Source: Periconia sp. R9002 (lineage: Eukaryota > Ascomycota > Dothideomycetes > Pleosporales > Periconiaceae). From it: a stretch of DNA of 64,000 bases. The notes below the pieces were generated by a model. The model was not told where the DNA came from. It searched no databases and saw only the letters and a program-made list of their open reading frames with translations. The position numbers and the translations under genes were made by a program. This document shows, piece after piece, positions 36,090-48,374 of this stretch. The stretch is taken from positions 186,001-250,000 of the forward strand of contig JAMAHW010000036.1 of NCBI GenBank assembly GCA_023627715.1, given 5' to 3'. The stretch's first letter is position 1, and every line of letters begins with the position of its first letter.

Positions 36090-38069
36090 ATGCACCCGAC
36101 TGCCTCTTCCAACGCAAACAACAATTCTCGCAGGCCTCTGTCGTCGGCCCGTTCCCCGCATACTTCACCTCAGATACCTGGTCTTGACGGCATTGAAGAT
36201 GCACTCGAACTACAATCGATAGCACCTATTGAGGACACATTGAGGGACAATGGCGCTAGACTACACAACCAATCTACAGAGAATGTCAGTCTGTTGCCCA
36301 ATGCTAGACGCTTCTCTGTAGGATCAGCACAAAGCGAGGAAATTTATACTCCAGAAGAGGAGAAGAGGGTACTCAGAATATTGGACCGGCGCTTAGTGCT
36401 GTTCATGGCTCTCCTTTATTGTCTGAGCTTCTTAGATCGGTCGAGTGAGTGTGCTGTTCATCTCACTGTCAATGCAGGTCCAAACCAAAGAGAAAACAAA
36501 GACTATCTAGGGACAATGTTTCGTGGAGATGTATACTAAACCCATCTAGATATCGGCAATGCCAAAATCGCAGGTCTAACCCAAGATCTTGATCTCACCT
36601 CGGAACAATACGAGTGGCTCCTATGGGCTTTCTATATCACATATAGTATGTGGTATCATTTTCTGGCCATTAAAATTTGCATGCTCACGCATAAAAGTTG
36701 CATTTGAATGGATGGCTCTCATGTATCGCTTGGTCCCCCCACATATCTACATCTCAATATGTATTCTATCGTGGGGTATCATAGCATCACTGCAAGCCAT
36801 TGCCACTCGTTTTGAATTCCTACTTCTCCTTCGCCTCTTGTTGGGAGTGGGAGAAGCAGCGTTCGGGCCCGGAGTTCCGTTTTATCTATCTTTCTTCTTC
36901 CGTCGCGATGAGCTGGCATTTAGGACCGGGCTATTTATCTCTGCGAGCCCACTTTCAGCGTCATTTGCAGGCGTCCTGGCTTGGTTGATCACCAAGGTTG
37001 GTCAAAGTGGGCCGATCAGACCGTGGAGATTGCTGTTCTTGATTGAGGGGTTTCCAAGTTTGCTGGTCGCTGTCTGGGCATGGGATTTTGTGCCAGACTC
37101 GCCCGGCAAAGCAACATGGTTGACGAGCAGACAACAGCAGATTGCTGTGCGGAGACTGAGACAGGAGAACGGATCCAACGGCGAAGTCCACACTGACGAG
37201 AAAGAATACTCATCATTCAGGAAGAGGCAAAGTGTAAATTTTCGCGAAGTGCTTGAAGCTCTAAAAGACCCCAAGTCTTATCTAACTGCTGTAAGTATTG
37301 TTCCGTCTCATCACTGCGAGACTTAGGAAAGATTGAGGGGGCGGTTAACCTTTGTAAACATCCCATACTATGCATTAAGGGCCTCCCTCATGTTGGTGGA
37401 TAATTCTGACAATCCCTACAGTTCATGTTTTTTAGCTGTAATGTAGCGTTCAGCAGCATGCCCGTATTCCTACCAAGCATCATCCAAGACATGGGTCACC
37501 AATCAATTACTGCGCAAGCGTTATGCGCACCCCCCTATTTCTTTGCGTTTGCCGTCGTTCTCGTTACTGCATACTATTCCGACCGCTTAAGATCCCGCTC
37601 AACCTTCATTATCCTCCATTCCGTTATGGCCACGCTTGGGTACGGCACCATAGCCCTATGCGGCTATTATCAATTTCCCAGTGTCTGGATCCGTTATTTC
37701 GCATTGTTCCCCGCTACAGCAGGCTTCTTCTCTGCAGTCACGATCATCATCACGTGGACCATCAACAACCAGGAGAGCGATAGCAAAAAAGGCGCCGGTA
37801 TCGCCATCATGAATATTATAGGACAAATGGGCCCGCTGCTGGGGACCAGCATCTTTCCTAATGAAGATGGGCCGTATTATGTCAAGGGTATGACAATCTG
37901 TGCCGGGTTCATGCTTTTGGTCGGGGTGCTTGCCGGAATTCTGCGGTTTGCACTTTTGAGAGAGAATAAACGGAATGAACAAAAAAGACGAATAGAGTTC
38001 ACTGGCATCCCGTTGGAGGATAGGATCGTGGCTGCAGAGGAACGGAAGGCTTTCAAATTCATGATCTAA
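36090..38069 (+). CDS. MFS permease, Dal5/anion:cation symporter type
   Basis: Plasma-membrane uptake carrier of the fungal allantoate/vitamin permease group, which moves organic anions with protons; the substrate is unknown. Four exons, 36090-36444, 36550-36645, 36698-37290 and 37422-38069, encode 563 aa. The family landmark LDRRLVLFMALLYCLSFLDR joins across intron 1 to SNIGNAKIAGL. The other landmark is LRLLLGVGEAAFGPGVPFYLS in TM4, then RRDELAFRTGLFISASPL. Hydrophobic segments fit 12 TMs with a long central cytosolic loop (about residues 300-345). The N-terminal 110 residues are a disordered cytosolic tail. Introns of 105, 52 and 131 nt all restore family sequence. Confidence 0.93.
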
Positions 38070-38330
38070 CGAATGGTACATGTATGTACCAATGTAGTCA
38101 GATGGCTACGCATACTATGCCTCGCCCGAAAAAGCTCGATAAACCGGCGGTGTAACTAGTTCGCATGTCAAAAAGTCCAATGTGGAGCCTGCTACCACCA
38201 TGCTAGAACATGTCGCTTCTACGGAGCCAATGCGGAAATTCACCGCCCACACGAAATGCCCACCAACTCGACATGTGTACATTGATAAATTGAACAAACG
38301 ATCGGATCGACATCAATTCGATTGGTTCGG

Positions 38331-38342
38331 TGGTGTAGTTGG
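38331..38342 (+). promoter_or_regulatory. Pol III A box of tRNA-Val
   Basis: TGGTGTAGTTGG matches the TRGYNNANNNGG consensus and covers tRNA bases 8-19. It lies upstream of the 55-nt insert, so it is undisturbed. Confidence 0.8.
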
Positions 38343-38349
38343 TTATCAC

Positions 38350-38404
38350 GTACGGTGCTCTCCTGGAAAACAGTCCATCAAAACTTTACTAACAATGAGT
38401 CCAG
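38350..38404 (+). other. 55-nt spliceosomal-type insert inside tRNA-Val
   Basis: It begins GTACGG, contains a perfect TACTAAC at 38387-38393 (branch A at 38392) and ends TCCAG, 12 nt after the branch A. Length, donor and branch spacing match mRNA introns in the same window. It interrupts the tRNA exactly between bases 25 and 26. It contains no T4 run, so it would not stop Pol III. The inverted arms CCTGGA (38362-38367) and TCCAGG (38400-38405) could pair. Confidence 0.75.
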
Positions 38405-38416
38405 GTCAGTCTAACA

Positions 38417-38428
38417 TTCTCGTTAGAA
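38417..38428 (+). other. Canonical 12-nt tRNA intron at position 37/38
   Basis: TTCTCGTTAGAA follows base 37. Its GTTAG can pair with CTAAC of the anticodon loop, the standard anticodon-intron helix used by the tRNA splicing endonuclease. Confidence 0.85.
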
Positions 38429-38441
38429 CACTGAAGGTCCC

Positions 38442-38452
38442 GAGTTCAAACC
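38442..38452 (+). promoter_or_regulatory. Pol III B box of tRNA-Val
   Basis: GAGTTCAAACC closely fits the GGTTCRANNCC consensus in the T arm. The insert stretches the A-to-B box gap to about 100 nt, which Pol III genes generally tolerate. Confidence 0.8.
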
Positions 38453-38496
38453 TCGGCTGAATCATCATGAATTCAAGTGTCTGCTGTGGCACAATC

Positions 38497-38501
38497 TTTT
38501 T
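38497..38501 (+). terminator. Pol III T5 terminator
   Basis: TTTTT 33 nt after the tRNA 3' end; a second T5 follows at 38506-38510. Confidence 0.65.
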
Positions 38502-39083
38502 GCCATTTTTGAGAGCATCTTTTTGGGGATGGCCGTGCGTTGTGTGGTGGGTCGATGGATAATCATTGGAATGGTTAAACATGTGAAATATGGAATTTCG
38601 ATGTTGTTCGCTACATGGAGTGACAACTGGCAAGTTAAAGATTTTAGGTCACTGTTATTACAGTACTTTCCCATCGACAGAGTAGTGTATTCGACCGTAG
38701 AAAATTTTTCAATGTTAAACGTCGCCTACGTGTACACTTGCATCAATGATGCATTCAAATGTTGATGTGAGATTGGTTAGTGTCACGTGACAGATATTGA
38801 CGCACGCCAAGTCCCCTTAAGCGGTAAAGCGCAAGATCACCCATCATTCACAACATGCACCTGAACATCCGGAGAATCAAATCCTCTAGTTCTAATGCCT
38901 GGAGCAACAAGAAACCCACATTTTGCCTTATTGTGATATCGGTTATTTGACTGATGAGTACTTGAAGCGTCAGTTAAACTCATAGAGTTAGGGGCAAGCA
39001 CTGTACAACTACTGCAAGCTCCCAAAACAATGGTCATGCGCTCAGAACTTGGATGAACCCCTAGTTCACTTGCCACCGTAACC
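38502..39083. other. Intergenic: tRNA downstream and FIG4 promoter
   Basis: About 580 bases, A/T-rich at first. A minus-strand open frame overlaps its right end and the FIG4 start but is not supported as a gene. No second tRNA found. Confidence 0.45.
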
Positions 39084-42000
39084 ATGGAAAACTCACGGCA
39101 CAAATCTGAAGGCAGCGAGCGGCCTAGCTCGATATCTAGTTCTTCCCACAAGGCCAGTTCGGTGGACAATTCACTAGAAAAGGGAAATGACACCGACCAA
39201 GCTTCAACGGCCGTTGGAAGTCCTGAGCTCGGTCCAAAGTACAACGTTCCCGTGGCTGAATTCAAGCCAGAATCTGACGTGGAGAAGCTGCCGGGAATAC
39301 CCCGGGGAGATACGGAAGAAATAGCATTCTCTGGTGAAGAAGAAAACACGGCGGTCCCAATATCTTTCCAGAGATCGTCAAGTCCGGCCGCCATGCAGAA
39401 GAATAGAGGGGCTAGCTATGAAACAGTCGGCGATGGCGGAATCAACAGGATGCACAAATTTTCCCTCTACGAAACGAGTACCCGGTTCTACCTGGTGGGA
39501 GCAGATAGCATGGACAAGCACTATCGAGTTTTGAAGATCGATCGAACTGCACCCCCTGGGATACTAAGCATCTTCGAGGATGATATTGTGTACGACAAAC
39601 GGGAAATGAGTCTACTTCTGAATACTATTGATGACGGCAACAAGCATACCGGAGGAATGAGATTCAAATGCAGCACCTGGGGCCTTCTTGGCTTCATCCG
39701 CTTCACAGAAGCCTACTATATGCTGCTTATTACCAAGAGAGCGCAGGTGGCCATGATAGGAGGCCACTACATATATCAAGTGGACGGTACAGAGTTGGTC
39801 CCGCTTACAACTGGAGCAACATCACGGTTCCAGAAAGACCGGAATCCAGATGAAGCAAGATTTCTCAGCATTCTCACTAACATTGACCTGACGCGTTTCT
39901 TTTATTTCAGCTATTCTTACAATATTACGCGAAGTCTCCAGCAAAACATTATTCGTGAGAGAGAAGCGCTCAATGAAGGCCGTCCGCACCCTAACCGCGA
40001 CTTCCAAGACATGTTCGTATGGAACCACTTTCTTCTTGAACCAGCCAAGAAGACACTCAAGAATGTGTATGACTGGTGTCACCCCATCATACATGGTTCG
40101 GTCGATCAATCATCCCTCGACGTCTTTGGTAGAAGAATATATATTACACTTCTGGCGCGGCGGTCAAGATATTTTGCTGGAGCGCGATTCCTCAAACGGG
40201 GAATAAATGATTCGGGATATGTCGCCAACGACGTGGAGACAGAACAGATCGTTTCTGAGGCACTCACCACTTCTTTTCACGCACCGGGTCCACGGCTGTT
40301 CTCTAATCCGGGCTTCTCATCATATGTACAGCATCGAGGGAGCATTCCACTGCATTGGACCCAAGATAATAGCGGGGTGTCCTACAAGCCTGATATCGAC
40401 CTCAATCTTCCGGATCCTTTCTTCACTGCCGCAGCTCTGCATTTCGACAATCTCTTCGAAAGATACGGAGCACCGGTGTATGTGCTAAATCTCATAAAAC
40501 AACGGGAACGGACACCACGAGAGTCTAAGCTCCTTTACGAGTACAAACACGCCGTTGATTACCTCAACCAGTCACTACCCAAGGATAAGAAGATCATATA
40601 TGAAGCATTTGATATGGCAAGGGCTTCAAAGACCCGTGGTCAAGACGTCATTGGTACATTGGAGCATTTGGCTGAGAAAGTCATTCGGCAAACGGGATTC
40701 TTTCACAATGGCGACAATGAGATCGGTGCACCTCAGGTGCAAAATGGCGTGGCGCGTACTAATTGCATTGACTGCCTCGATCGAACCAACGCCGCGCAGT
40801 TTGTTATTGCGAAGCGTGCACTTGGCCGACAACTTCAAGCCCTCGGTGTGATCTCAGGAAATACCGTGGAGTATGATACAGATTGTGTTGATAACTTCAC
40901 ACACATGTTTCATAACCATGGAGATGCAATAGCTATGCAGTATGGAGGTTCACATCTCGTCAACACAATGGCTACATATCGAAAAATCAATCAGTGGCAG
41001 AGTAGCTCTCGAGATATGGTAGAGAGCTTCAAACGTTACTATCACAACTCCTTCCTTGACTCGCAACGCCAAGAAGCTTACAACCTTTTCCTTGGATACT
41101 ATACCTTCCAGAAAGATGGACCCATGCTGTGGGACCTTACCACAGATTACTACCTTCACCACGGAGATCCACGTAAATATTTGGAGAAGCCTCGAAGAAA
41201 TTATATACAGTGGTATAGCCCAAACAACCTTGAACCCCGCTCCCTCCCGCCCCTAGAGAGGCAAATCCAACTTTCACGGAATAGAGTCGATAACGCAGAC
41301 GACTATTGGCTGGAATACTATCGCCCGCTTGCGGTTACGTCTTTCCTCAAGGTGTATGCGTTTCGTCTGAATTGCCCACCTATCCATCAGAAGGACACAT
41401 CGTATCCAACTCGTCAACAAAACGCATCCCCGTTTGTAGTTCGCAAGAAGCAACAAGATCAGATTTCGCCTGGAAAAGAGGATCGTAAGCAATCAAGAAA
41501 AGGAGTGACGATTCTCGATCCGGTCAGCGAGAGCGATTCTCGAAAGAGCAGCATGATCTCTCGCCGCCACAAGAGCATGCAGCTGCACATACCGGAAATT
41601 GGGTCACCTGTGAAGCAATCAATCCTTCGCGACACAGCTTTTGACTCTCAAGTGCCCAACTCGGCCCCAGCGACCACGAGACACTTTCCGTCCCTGTCCA
41701 ATTCTTCGTCCACAGGACTAGCGTCCAACTTTGGTTACGAAGGCTTTCGACCCGCCGATAAAGCCCTCGTCCACTTGTGGACCCTCGCCCAGTTCCACGA
41801 CAACAGCATTAACCCGACCGTAACTAGTGCGGAAGAAGAAGAATACTACCGCTACATCGAGCATCCCCTCAATCTGCCTCTGGTGGTGAGCTCGGAAACA
41901 CCCGTAGCAGACGACCCCACAGCGCAGGAGTTCCAAGAGTATCTCAATATGACCGACGGCACCAATGTGCAGCAAGCATATCAAGACACGACCGAAACCT

Positions 42001-42500
42001 CGTCGCTGCAAGACTCACTCAAAGACTTCACATTTGTCCAACTCGACACCGCGTCCATCCGCTCCTCCAACAACAACGCAGGCATGGGACCCCGGCCAAC
42101 CACGTCCTCTTCCGCCCTTGGATACCCACTCACGCCCTTCTCGCACCCCTCTGCACACCACCACAACGCGCTGTACAACCCGTACCCGTACAACAACAAC
42201 CCCGAATACCTCCAAGTCGCCCAGCAGCAGCAGCACTCGCTGTACGCCGAAAGCATCCGCGAAGACGCCGAGACGCTCGAGCCCCCAGCAGGCACGGGGG
42301 CGGGCAAGTTCCAGACGTCGGCCGAGGATATCGAGGAGTTCAATGAGTTTTTGAAGATCAAGGACAATCCGTTGGATGTCGAGGAGGCGGATGGCGGGAA
42401 GAAGAGGTACAAGGCGTATCGGCAGTGGTTGCGCGGCAAGAGTTTCTTCAAGCAGAGCAAGGTCGATCCTGAGTGGCAGAATCAGCTGCCTATGCGATAG
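39084..42500 (+). CDS. FIG4: SAC-domain phosphoinositide phosphatase FIG4
   Basis: It dephosphorylates PI(3,5)P2 on the vacuole/late endosome and also stabilises the Fab1-Vac14 kinase complex. A single exon encodes 1138 aa from an ATG in the context ACCATGG. Residues 1-110 are disordered. The Sac N-domain begins HKFSLYETSTRFYLVG, as in Fig4. The catalytic CX5R(T) loop is RTNCIDCLDRTNAAQ at about residue 555-570. The C-terminal third has low-complexity Ser, His, Pro, Asn and Gln stretches, then ends in a conserved-looking charged block (EEFNEFLKIKDNP ... KRYKAYRQWLRGKSFFK). It is longer than yeast Fig4 (about 880), the excess being in disordered parts. The stop codon abuts a tandem repeat. Confidence 0.96.
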   Translation: MENSRHKSEGSERPSSISSSSHKASSVDNSLEKGNDTDQASTAVGSPELGPKYNVPVAEFKPESDVEKLPGIPRGDTEEIAFSGEEENTAVPISFQRSSSPAAMQKNRGASYETVGDGGINRMHKFSLYETSTRFYLVGADSMDKHYRVLKIDRTAPPGILSIFEDDIVYDKREMSLLLNTIDDGNKHTGGMRFKCSTWGLLGFIRFTEAYYMLLITKRAQVAMIGGHYIYQVDGTELVPLTTGATSRFQKDRNPDEARFLSILTNIDLTRFFYFSYSYNITRSLQQNIIREREALNEGRPHPNRDFQDMFVWNHFLLEPAKKTLKNVYDWCHPIIHGSVDQSSLDVFGRRIYITLLARRSRYFAGARFLKRGINDSGYVANDVETEQIVSEALTTSFHAPGPRLFSNPGFSSYVQHRGSIPLHWTQDNSGVSYKPDIDLNLPDPFFTAAALHFDNLFERYGAPVYVLNLIKQRERTPRESKLLYEYKHAVDYLNQSLPKDKKIIYEAFDMARASKTRGQDVIGTLEHLAEKVIRQTGFFHNGDNEIGAPQVQNGVARTNCIDCLDRTNAAQFVIAKRALGRQLQALGVISGNTVEYDTDCVDNFTHMFHNHGDAIAMQYGGSHLVNTMATYRKINQWQSSSRDMVESFKRYYHNSFLDSQRQEAYNLFLGYYTFQKDGPMLWDLTTDYYLHHGDPRKYLEKPRRNYIQWYSPNNLEPRSLPPLERQIQLSRNRVDNADDYWLEYYRPLAVTSFLKVYAFRLNCPPIHQKDTSYPTRQQNASPFVVRKKQQDQISPGKEDRKQSRKGVTILDPVSESDSRKSSMISRRHKSMQLHIPEIGSPVKQSILRDTAFDSQVPNSAPATTRHFPSLSNSSSTGLASNFGYEGFRPADKALVHLWTLAQFHDNSINPTVTSAEEEEYYRYIEHPLNLPLVVSSETPVADDPTAQEFQEYLNMTDGTNVQQAYQDTTETSSLQDSLKDFTFVQLDTASIRSSNNNAGMGPRPTTSSSALGYPLTPFSHPSAHHHNALYNPYPYNNNPEYLQVAQQQQHSLYAESIREDAETLEPPAGTGAGKFQTSAEDIEEFNEFLKIKDNPLDVEEADGGKKRYKAYRQWLRGKSFFKQSKVDPEWQNQLPMR

Positions 42501-47071: not shown

Positions 47072-48374
47072 ATGGCACCTTCATCTTTCAAAAAATGGAC
47101 TGTGGAGGGAAAAAATGGCTTCGACTCACTCAAGTTCCACGAGAAAGCCTCTCTCCCCCAGTTGGGCGATCATGACATTCTGGTCAAACGTGAGTGCTTC
47201 TCAATTGCGTCGTTGGCGATAGACTCATCATTGACTTCTTGTAACAGTTCACGCTGCTTCGTTGAATTTCCGCGATCTCGCCATCCCCAATGTATGTCAA
47301 CCTGAGTACTAAAGACGACAAAATGAGATCACGCAAAACAAATACTGACCCAATCTCTTTTCTTAGGGCAAATATCCCTTCCCCATCAAAGACGGTGTGG
47401 TTCCTGGATCCGACGGTGCAGGCATCGTTGAGAGTGTAGGTCCTCGCGTGACGCGTTTCAAGCAGGGCGACAAGGTGGTTACGCTCTTCAACCAGGGTCA
47501 TCTCGGCGGTGACATTGACAGCGCTGCCCTCAAAACCGGTCTCGGGGGTGTCATCGATGGCACACTTGCCGAATATGGTGTCTTCGACGAGAACGGTCTT
47601 GTTGCCGCGCCATCCAACCTGGACCTTGTCGAAGCCAGCACACTTTCCTGCGCAGCGTTGACCGCATGGAACGCGCTCTATGGATTAGAAAGCCGTCCTC
47701 TGAAACCTGGACAGACGGTCCTTACCCAGGGAACAGGAGGTGTATCCATTTTCGCCCTGCAATTCGCAAAGGCCGCTGGAGCCAAAGTCATCGCCACGAC
47801 CTCTTCGGCTGAGAAAGCGGAGACGTTGAAGAAGCTTGGAGCTGATCACGTGAGTGAGGTTCTCGTGAATGTATAAATGACCGTCTAAGTATAATACTAA
47901 CTACGAAATCTCTGGAACAGGTCATCAACTACAAAGAGACCCCCAACTGGGGTGAAGAAGCCAAGAAACTTACCCCCAATGGCAAGGGTGTCGGTGCGTC
48001 GTTCTCATCTACATGATTCTTCGCCAGCGACTAATCCGATTCTAGAACACGTCGTCGAGGTTGGTGGACCTACCACTATGGCCCAGTCTTTGAAAGCCAT
48101 CGCCATGGAGGGTGTGATCAGCATCATCGGTTTCATCGGCGGCTTCAGCAAGGACCAACCCTCATTCCTCGACTGCCTAAGCAACTTGTGCACTGTCCGT
48201 GGTCTGCTCGTCGGATCGCGTCTTCAGTTCGAAGATATGAACCGCGCCATCGAGGCCAACAACATCCACCCCGTTGTTGACAAGAAGAAGTTTGCGCTCA
48301 CCGAGCTCAAGGATGCGTACCAGTACATGTGGGACCAGAAGCACTTTGGTAAACTGGTTGTAACGATGGAGTAG
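47072..48374 (+). CDS. Medium-chain NAD(P)-dependent alcohol dehydrogenase/quinone-oxidoreductase-like
   Basis: Five exons, 47072-47189, 47248-47291, 47367-47849, 47921-47993 and 48046-48374, encode 348 aa. The N-terminal GroES-like fold includes the join LVKLHAASLNFRDLAIPN and VVPGSDGAGIVESVG. The Rossmann domain has the nucleotide loop QGTGGVSIFALQFAKAAGAK, with ATTSSAEK after beta-2. The catalytic and structural zinc ligands of classical alcohol dehydrogenases are absent, placing it with zinc-independent quinone-oxidoreductase-like members. The physiological substrate is unknown and the protein is presumably cytosolic. All four introns (58, 75, 71 and 52 nt) have GT-AG ends and restore frame. 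It is convergent with ULP1. Confidence 0.92.

Follow-up and report, generated by a model that had tools for sequence, protein, structure and literature searches.

Spliceosomal-type introns in nuclear tRNA genes of Periconia sp. R9002, including every tRNA-Tyr gene found

Seven of the 87 nuclear tRNA genes of Periconia sp. R9002 that were read and could be classified carry, at five different sites other than 37/38, an insert with the signals of an mRNA intron. All three tRNA-Tyr(GTA) genes found belong to this set. Every cytosolic tRNA-Tyr of the fungus probably starts as an RNA polymerase III (Pol III) transcript that the spliceosome must process before the tRNA endonuclease does, so that two unrelated machines act on one 75-nt molecule. 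Another of the seven is a tRNA-Val(AAC) gene of the window, by which we mean the whole 64,000-nt stretch of DNA analyzed (contig JAMAHW010000036.1). Judged from its sequence, the Val precursor is probably a Pol III transcript from which the spliceosome cuts a U2-type intron and the tRNA endonuclease takes a 12-nt intron at position 37/38.

The Val gene occupies 38324..38464 of the forward strand, to which all coordinates in this paragraph refer, and its insert falls between tRNA bases 25 and 26. The first piece of the tRNA body (bases 1-25, 38324..38349) is delimited by alignment to four insert-free copies of the gene. The spliceosomal-type intron of 55 nt that follows (38350..38404) has the form GT..TACTAAC..AG and is missing from those four sisters. 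It opens with the 5' splice site GTACGG (38350..38355), the weakest among the seven inserts, contains the branch-site motif TACTAAC (38387..38393; branch A at 38392, 12 nt from the final G) and closes with the 3' splice site CAG (38402..38404; intron end CCAG). The second piece of the body (bases 26-37, 38405..38416) holds the anticodon AAC (38413-38415), and the third (bases 38-73, 38429..38464) lies beyond the ordinary 37/38 intron, TTCTCGTTAGAA, of 12 nt (38417..38428). Read through, the gene consists of GGTTCGGTGGTGTAGTTGGTTATCAC, then GTACGG..TACTAAC..CCAG, then GTCAGTCTAACA, then TTCTCGTTAGAA, and finally CACTGAAGG..CTGAATCA. Box A, TGGTGTAGTTGG (38331..38342), is unbroken and matches at 12 of 12 positions the sequence TRGYNNARNNGG, which we take to be the box A consensus. 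Box B, AGTTCAAACCT (38443..38453), is also unbroken and scores 7/11 against GGTTCGANTCC, the presumed box B consensus, a score equal to that of 4 of the 80 other genes. The likely Pol III terminator, TTTTT (38497..38501), begins 32 nt past the body; a run of at least five T residues starts within 40 nt in 75 of the 79 other genes whose flanks are complete. No TATA[AT] element was found upstream of the Val gene, as is also the case for 16 of those 79 genes.

When the genome was searched with positions 38300-38500, four further tRNA-Val(AAC) genes were found (contigs C60, C2, C5 and C13), which supplies the copy number that the preliminary description of this DNA had asked for; all four lack the 55-nt insert. 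In each of them TTATCAC and GTCAGTC, the sequences flanking the insert, are continuous, which sets the ends of the insertion independently of any folding. The spliceosomal-type and the normal 37/38 intron that the preliminary description had placed together in this one tRNA gene are hence both present, and its letters and coordinates for the 55-nt insert between bases 25 and 26 (GTACGG, TACTAAC and a CAG end 12 nt past the branch A) agree with ours. Over 74 bases the body differs from those of the four sisters by 0, 0, 2 and 2 residues; its identity at 74 of 74 positions with two insert-free genes, once both introns are removed, bears out the claim of an undecayed body. The further claim of a fully paired tRNA-Val held for the cloverleaf, which is complete, but not for the pairing, as the D stem has three of four pairs, the same as in the other four Val genes. 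The 37/38 intron of the window gene differs from the introns of all four sisters, yet its site and the motif GTTAG, which could pair with the anticodon arm, are retained in all five Val genes. The insert itself gave no second match in its own genome with the 38300-38500 query, and so does not show the several near-identical copies characteristic of an introner-like element.

The Val gene lies between an MFS gene and a SAC gene (36090-42500). The latter encodes a SAC-domain phosphatase (39084-42500) sharing 85% identity with a protein of Periconia digitata. In several SAC proteins of Pleosporales the annotation places an MFS domain (PF07690) on the same chain; the MFS-SAC neighborhood therefore appears to be conserved, and such chains may have arisen by fusion of gene models.

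A search for other tRNA genes with such inserts at non-37/38 sites, also proposed in the preliminary description, gave six more in the same genome. The sequence searched comprised 42.9 Mb in 267 contigs, the assembly size published in the portion of PMC10483032 available to us being 44.55 Mb. A tRNA family search gave 59 matches, 14 of them on contig C137, and because it scored only 63 of 1247 candidates, more genes were placed by T-arm patterns. The first pattern matched 218 places, and part of a set of 100 of these was read; the second matched 80 places, all of which were read (the reversed pattern matched 35). Further loci came from DNA queries and fetched regions; a DNA query of nine yeast tRNAs gave no match. 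Contig C137 was taken as mitochondrial owing to its tRNA density and kept apart, and with C137 handled separately a mitochondrial origin of the matches was rejected. Genes were called with a purpose-written cloverleaf scorer since ARAGORN, given the spliced variants, overlooked the Tyr genes and one Arg gene and read Trp wrongly. The scorer tested GT..YTRAY..AG candidates no longer than about 135 nt at 171 loci on both strands (1401 records including the unspliced ones), and in 3-kb loci the candidate introns tested were those of the central 600 bases.

By these means 80 distinct nuclear tRNA genes were complete without removal of any mRNA-type sequence, and 65 of the 80 have a 37/38 intron of 8-62 nt. 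Besides the Val gene, those with an mRNA-type insert are two Arg(CCT) genes, one at C21:171737 interrupted at 53/54 and one on C33 interrupted at 11/12, a Trp(CCA) gene at C21:96310 interrupted in the D loop at 19/20, and the three Tyr(GTA) genes at C1:1247140, C18:331019 and C18:354214, all interrupted at 63/64. Exact GT..AG removal converts each of the seven into a complete tRNA (acceptor stem 7/7, D stem 3-4/4, anticodon stem 4-5/5 and T stem 5/5 pairs), and six of the seven also have an ordinary 37/38 intron. At the 171 loci, on both strands, no other nuclear tRNA was completed by removal of a candidate intron. Several apparent completions were dropped: L014 and L015 (one place) and L030 were mitochondrial, in L039 (twice) and L148 the removal affected only the last three bases of an already complete gene, and L080 and L083 duplicated L066. 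Outside the 87 stand tRNA-like loci that the scorer did not accept: L137 (41.7 bits against the Rfam tRNA model), L149 (labeled Pro(cgg) by ARAGORN), L151, L158, two ARAGORN hits in L105 and a second hit in L053 at a contig end. In L158 tandem repeats separate the strands of the anticodon stem. Three Phe genes, four Lys(CTT) genes and one Cys gene were placed and left out of the reading, and neither a Leu(TAA) nor an Ile(TAT) isoacceptor was present among the tRNA genes sampled.

The seven inserts are uniformly short (55, 50, 54, 58, 58, 51 and 55 nt; range 50-58). All begin with GT and end with AG, the starts being GTAAGT in four, GTGAGT in two and GTACGG in Val (GTRAGT in 6 of 7) and the ends CAG, AAG or TAG. 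A branch motif of the form CTRAY is present in all seven (CTAAC in four, CTAAT in two and CTGAC in one), with 10-12 nt from the branch A to the intron end, a distance within the range of 6-36 nt given in PMC5832005. When the inserts were shuffled, GT..AG ends together with a CTRAY at 6-25 nt from the end arose in 0.026% of trials. Ordinary tRNA introns differ from the inserts in site, 37/38, and in their ends, as none of the 65 in the other genes begins with GT and ends with AG. Given these signals, the inserts are best explained as U2-type spliceosomal introns. The nine mRNA introns called in the window, a small set, are 47-103 nt long with similar signals and 8-28 nt between branch A and intron end. 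They were called by a codon-usage heuristic at a threshold of 15 (a reversed control gave 2 calls at 14 and 0 at 16), three earlier attempts having given none, two or too loose a set. The likeness of the Val insert to nearby mRNA introns, which the preliminary description had called indistinguishable, therefore holds for the signals in general but not for GTACGG, which is absent from the nine, although it fits GTRNGN. For comparison, an alcohol dehydrogenase-like gene, in which two further introns were read by eye, has a forward-strand intron at 47850..47920 of the form GTGAGT..TACTAAC..ACAG. This intron (47844-47925) and the Val insert (38344-38408) share the exon context ATCAC before and GTCA after the intron, probably by chance; the coincidence would be of interest if introns move by reverse splicing.

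The tRNA-Tyr genes provide the strongest argument that the inserts are removed. Cytosolic tRNA-Tyr is indispensable to a living fungus, and whole-assembly searches found three Tyr(GTA) genes, all interrupted at the same site. A mature Tyr query aligned only to these three genes, in each over bases 1-66 and no further, and the Tyr T-arm string occurred only in them among the 80 T-arm pattern matches. The joined 3' half, AGTTCGATTCTGGGAGCGGAG, was absent at up to three mismatches from the 42.9 Mb searched of the 44.55 Mb published. For a tRNA that the fungus needs and whose genes were all found interrupted, the simplest reading is that the insert is removed. The three bodies are identical over 75 nt, and both the 63/64 and the 37/38 introns have diverged in length and letters, the former all keeping GTRAGTTCATC, a CTRAY branch motif and an ATAG end followed by GG. 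The Tyr loci (L114, L134 and L135) also share a leader hairpin of 6-7 bp about 4 bases before base 1, the letters of which differ while the pairing is the same. For Arg(CCT), queries with both mature sequences found only the two genes interrupted at different sites. A doubtful further candidate is L151, which ARAGORN labels Arg(cct) and gives an intron in an odd position; if a 37/38 intron is assumed instead, the anticodon becomes AAC, for which reason L151 was excluded from the Arg(CCT) set. That doubt makes the Arg(CCT) argument weaker than the Tyr argument, and wobble reading could substitute for tRNA-Arg(CCU). The necessity argument does not apply to Trp and Val since insert-free genes exist, one for Trp (L123) and four for Val. 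The sequences thus support a functional reading for the class of inserts, most strongly through Tyr, and the spliceosome is likely to be needed to make these tRNAs in this fungus.

We propose that Pol III would transcribe a pre-tRNA containing both introns, as the TATA element, boxes A and B and the T-run suggest. U1 and U2 snRNPs would then bind the GT and branch signals, and a normal spliceosome would join the tRNA body through a lariat. The folded body would next be measured by the TSEN endonuclease, which would excise the 37/38 intron, and the ends would be trimmed by RNase P and tRNase Z. The spliceosome is placed ahead of end trimming and TSEN because those enzymes read the folded body, which inserts at 25/26, 53/54 and 63/64 would likely disturb. 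In line with a disturbed fold, the Rfam tRNA model skips four of the six other insert-bearing genes at E 0.5 (the three Tyr genes and Arg(CCT) on C33). The inserts themselves may have been acquired in this lineage by the ordinary process of spliceosomal intron gain and be tolerated because splicing removes them.

Splicing by the spliceosome normally goes with Pol II, and the inserted tRNAs could instead be made as Pol II transcripts, capped and spliced like mRNAs, from which RNase P and tRNase Z would then free the tRNAs. This we consider a poor prospect given the anatomy of the genes. In all seven a run of at least five T residues starts 3-32 nt past the body; TATA[AT] precedes six (all except Val) and 63 of 79 other genes with full flanks, and both boxes are unbroken in five. 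Six of the seven keep box A intact; the exception, which would suit Pol II, is the Arg(CCT) gene on C33, in which the intron splits box A and the best score is 9/11, as against 10-11 in all 80 uninterrupted genes. Box B is likewise unbroken in 6 of 7, and the insert at 53/54 of the C21 Arg(CCT) gene rebuilds it, with AG on one side of the junction and TTCGAGTCC on the other (10/11 across the junction). These T-runs, TATA elements and largely uninterrupted boxes make Pol III plus spliceosome the better fit of the two functional routes that the preliminary description had offered, and Pol II the lesser. A Pol III transcript is moreover no bar to splicing, as the accessible part of PMC10484740 describes U6 as a Pol III RNA that can be spliced. 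TTTT occurs in none of the seven inserts, but this is weak evidence because 69-91% of shuffles also lack it and 9 of the 80 uninterrupted tRNA genes contain it. Another explanation takes the inserts for non-canonical bulge-helix-bulge introns, of the kind that the tRNA endonuclease cuts in red algae and nucleomorphs, and draws on the occurrence in archaea and some algae of introns at 25/26, 53/54 and other sites (PMC4090602, in part). It leaves GT..CTRAY..AG in 7 of 7 inserts unexplained and seems very unlikely. The pair sums of a bulge-helix-bulge layout, a poorly separating and hence weak structural test, were near random for the inserts (3-6 of 10, mean 5.4, against 5.0 for random sequence and 6.7 for 63 ordinary 37/38 introns). 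That one draft assembly is the sole source might suggest an assembly or chimera artefact, but such an error is hardly credible at seven places on five contigs with precise ends that complete a tRNA, the Tyr introns having diverged with their signals retained.

The preliminary description had also weighed function against a gain that killed one gene copy. For the class of inserts the functional reading is favored, as six more genes carry them and no uninterrupted Tyr(GTA) gene was found; for the Val copy the dead-gene option is weakened but remains because of the four intact tRNA-Val(AAC) genes, which also make this copy likely dispensable. It may have gained its intron as one of five redundant copies and died, even in a genome that splices its Tyr and Arg(CCT) introns, a fate with which its lack of TATA[AT], late T-run and GTACGG splice site would agree. 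We regard this as unlikely, though the least so of the alternatives, for a gene with a 74-nt body unchanged relative to two copies, a 37/38 intron that diverged while GTTAG was kept, a perfect TACTAAC branch site and an intron of a kind found in six other tRNA genes of the genome. Spliceosomal removal from a Pol III transcript remains our preferred reading for the Val gene also, if less securely than for Tyr.

Other Pol III-type RNAs of the genome were compared. All 31 of the 5S matches listed are 120-122 bases long (47 of 2181 candidates scored). For U6, with 47 of 2504 candidates scored, the five matches listed cover 69-103 bases, so these five have no intron-sized gap. The single match to RNase P RNA covers 368 bases, the model having 301 positions. 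About 230 bases from the main U6 gene lies a second, shorter U6-like match on the opposite strand (L068, 1207-1275 and 1501-1600). Six loci (L116, L125, L126, L127, L128 and L130) have Pol III-like units composed of TATATA, a strong hairpin, GCTAAY..AG, a box-B-like AAGTTCGAATC and a T-run. This family had no match in Rfam at E 0.5; it may be a further RNA whose 3' splice site is of the mRNA type.

U6 is itself a spliceosome component, and its intron is thought to have come from reverse splicing near the catalytic core. The U6 introns of Schizosaccharomyces pombe and other fungi are the closest parallel, a short structured Pol III RNA split by a normal mRNA-type intron (PMC10484740, in the part available), whereas here the hosts are tRNAs, the sites are five and a second intron type is present alongside. 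According to the sections of PMC5832005 at hand, most Pezizomycotina examined have U3 snoRNA genes with GT-AG introns and RCTRAY branch sites, which resemble the present inserts in lying within a non-coding RNA; among small structured RNAs, those sections give U3 and U6 as the sole ones for which frequent interruption is known, whereas the hosts here are tRNAs. Spliceosomal introns also interrupt nuclear rRNA genes of lichens and other ascomycetes, and the lichen introns are removed even once placed in yeast rDNA (PMC8527467, in part); there too the host is not a Pol II RNA, but it is a Pol I rRNA rather than a Pol III tRNA. Archaea, Cyanidioschyzon and nucleomorphs have tRNA introns in the D arm, in the T arm and at 25/26, often beside a 37/38 intron, and the accessible text of PMC4090602, in which the word 'spliceosome' has 0 occurrences, ascribes them to the tRNA endonuclease and motifs like the bulge-helix-bulge, unlike the GT..AG inserts of Periconia. 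The parts of PMC11782384 and PMC11889510 available hold no nuclear tRNA case, and the term 'tRNA' is absent from that of the latter. Searches of open-licence papers turned up no account of a nuclear tRNA gene with a spliceosomal intron. In kind, the Periconia inserts are spliceosomal introns in a non-coding Pol III RNA, as in U6, with a tRNA host and a second intron type for which we found no precedent in print.

Standard gene finders pass over much of this class. In the window no tRNA was seen by ARAGORN without introns or by Rfam at gathering scores, and the four genes skipped by the Rfam model also went unreported by ARAGORN with introns allowed, so annotations may lack real tRNA genes. According to the part of PMC8450103 available, the archaeal search of tRNAscan-SE includes an analysis of non-canonical introns. 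A model made with 16 mature tRNAs from this genome still sees most of the interrupted genes, giving unspliced scores of 44.2 bits for the window Val gene, 32.6-33.4 for Tyr, 32.8 for Arg(CCT) on C33 and 17.8 for Trp, as against 63.6-64.6 bits for the four other Val genes.

As ARAGORN and Rfam are blind to the Tyr genes, arrangements of this type are possibly widespread and unseen. tRNA splicing has until now been credited to a separate tRNA-splicing enzyme, and an essential tRNA-Tyr for which no uninterrupted gene was found would be an exception. Such genes would offer a natural system in which to learn how the spliceosome finds a Pol III transcript that has neither the Pol II tail nor a cap, what sets the order of two splicing machines on a single small RNA, and by what route spliceosomal introns reach new genes. 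If our reading is true, translation in a eukaryote would depend on the spliceosome at the level of tRNA.
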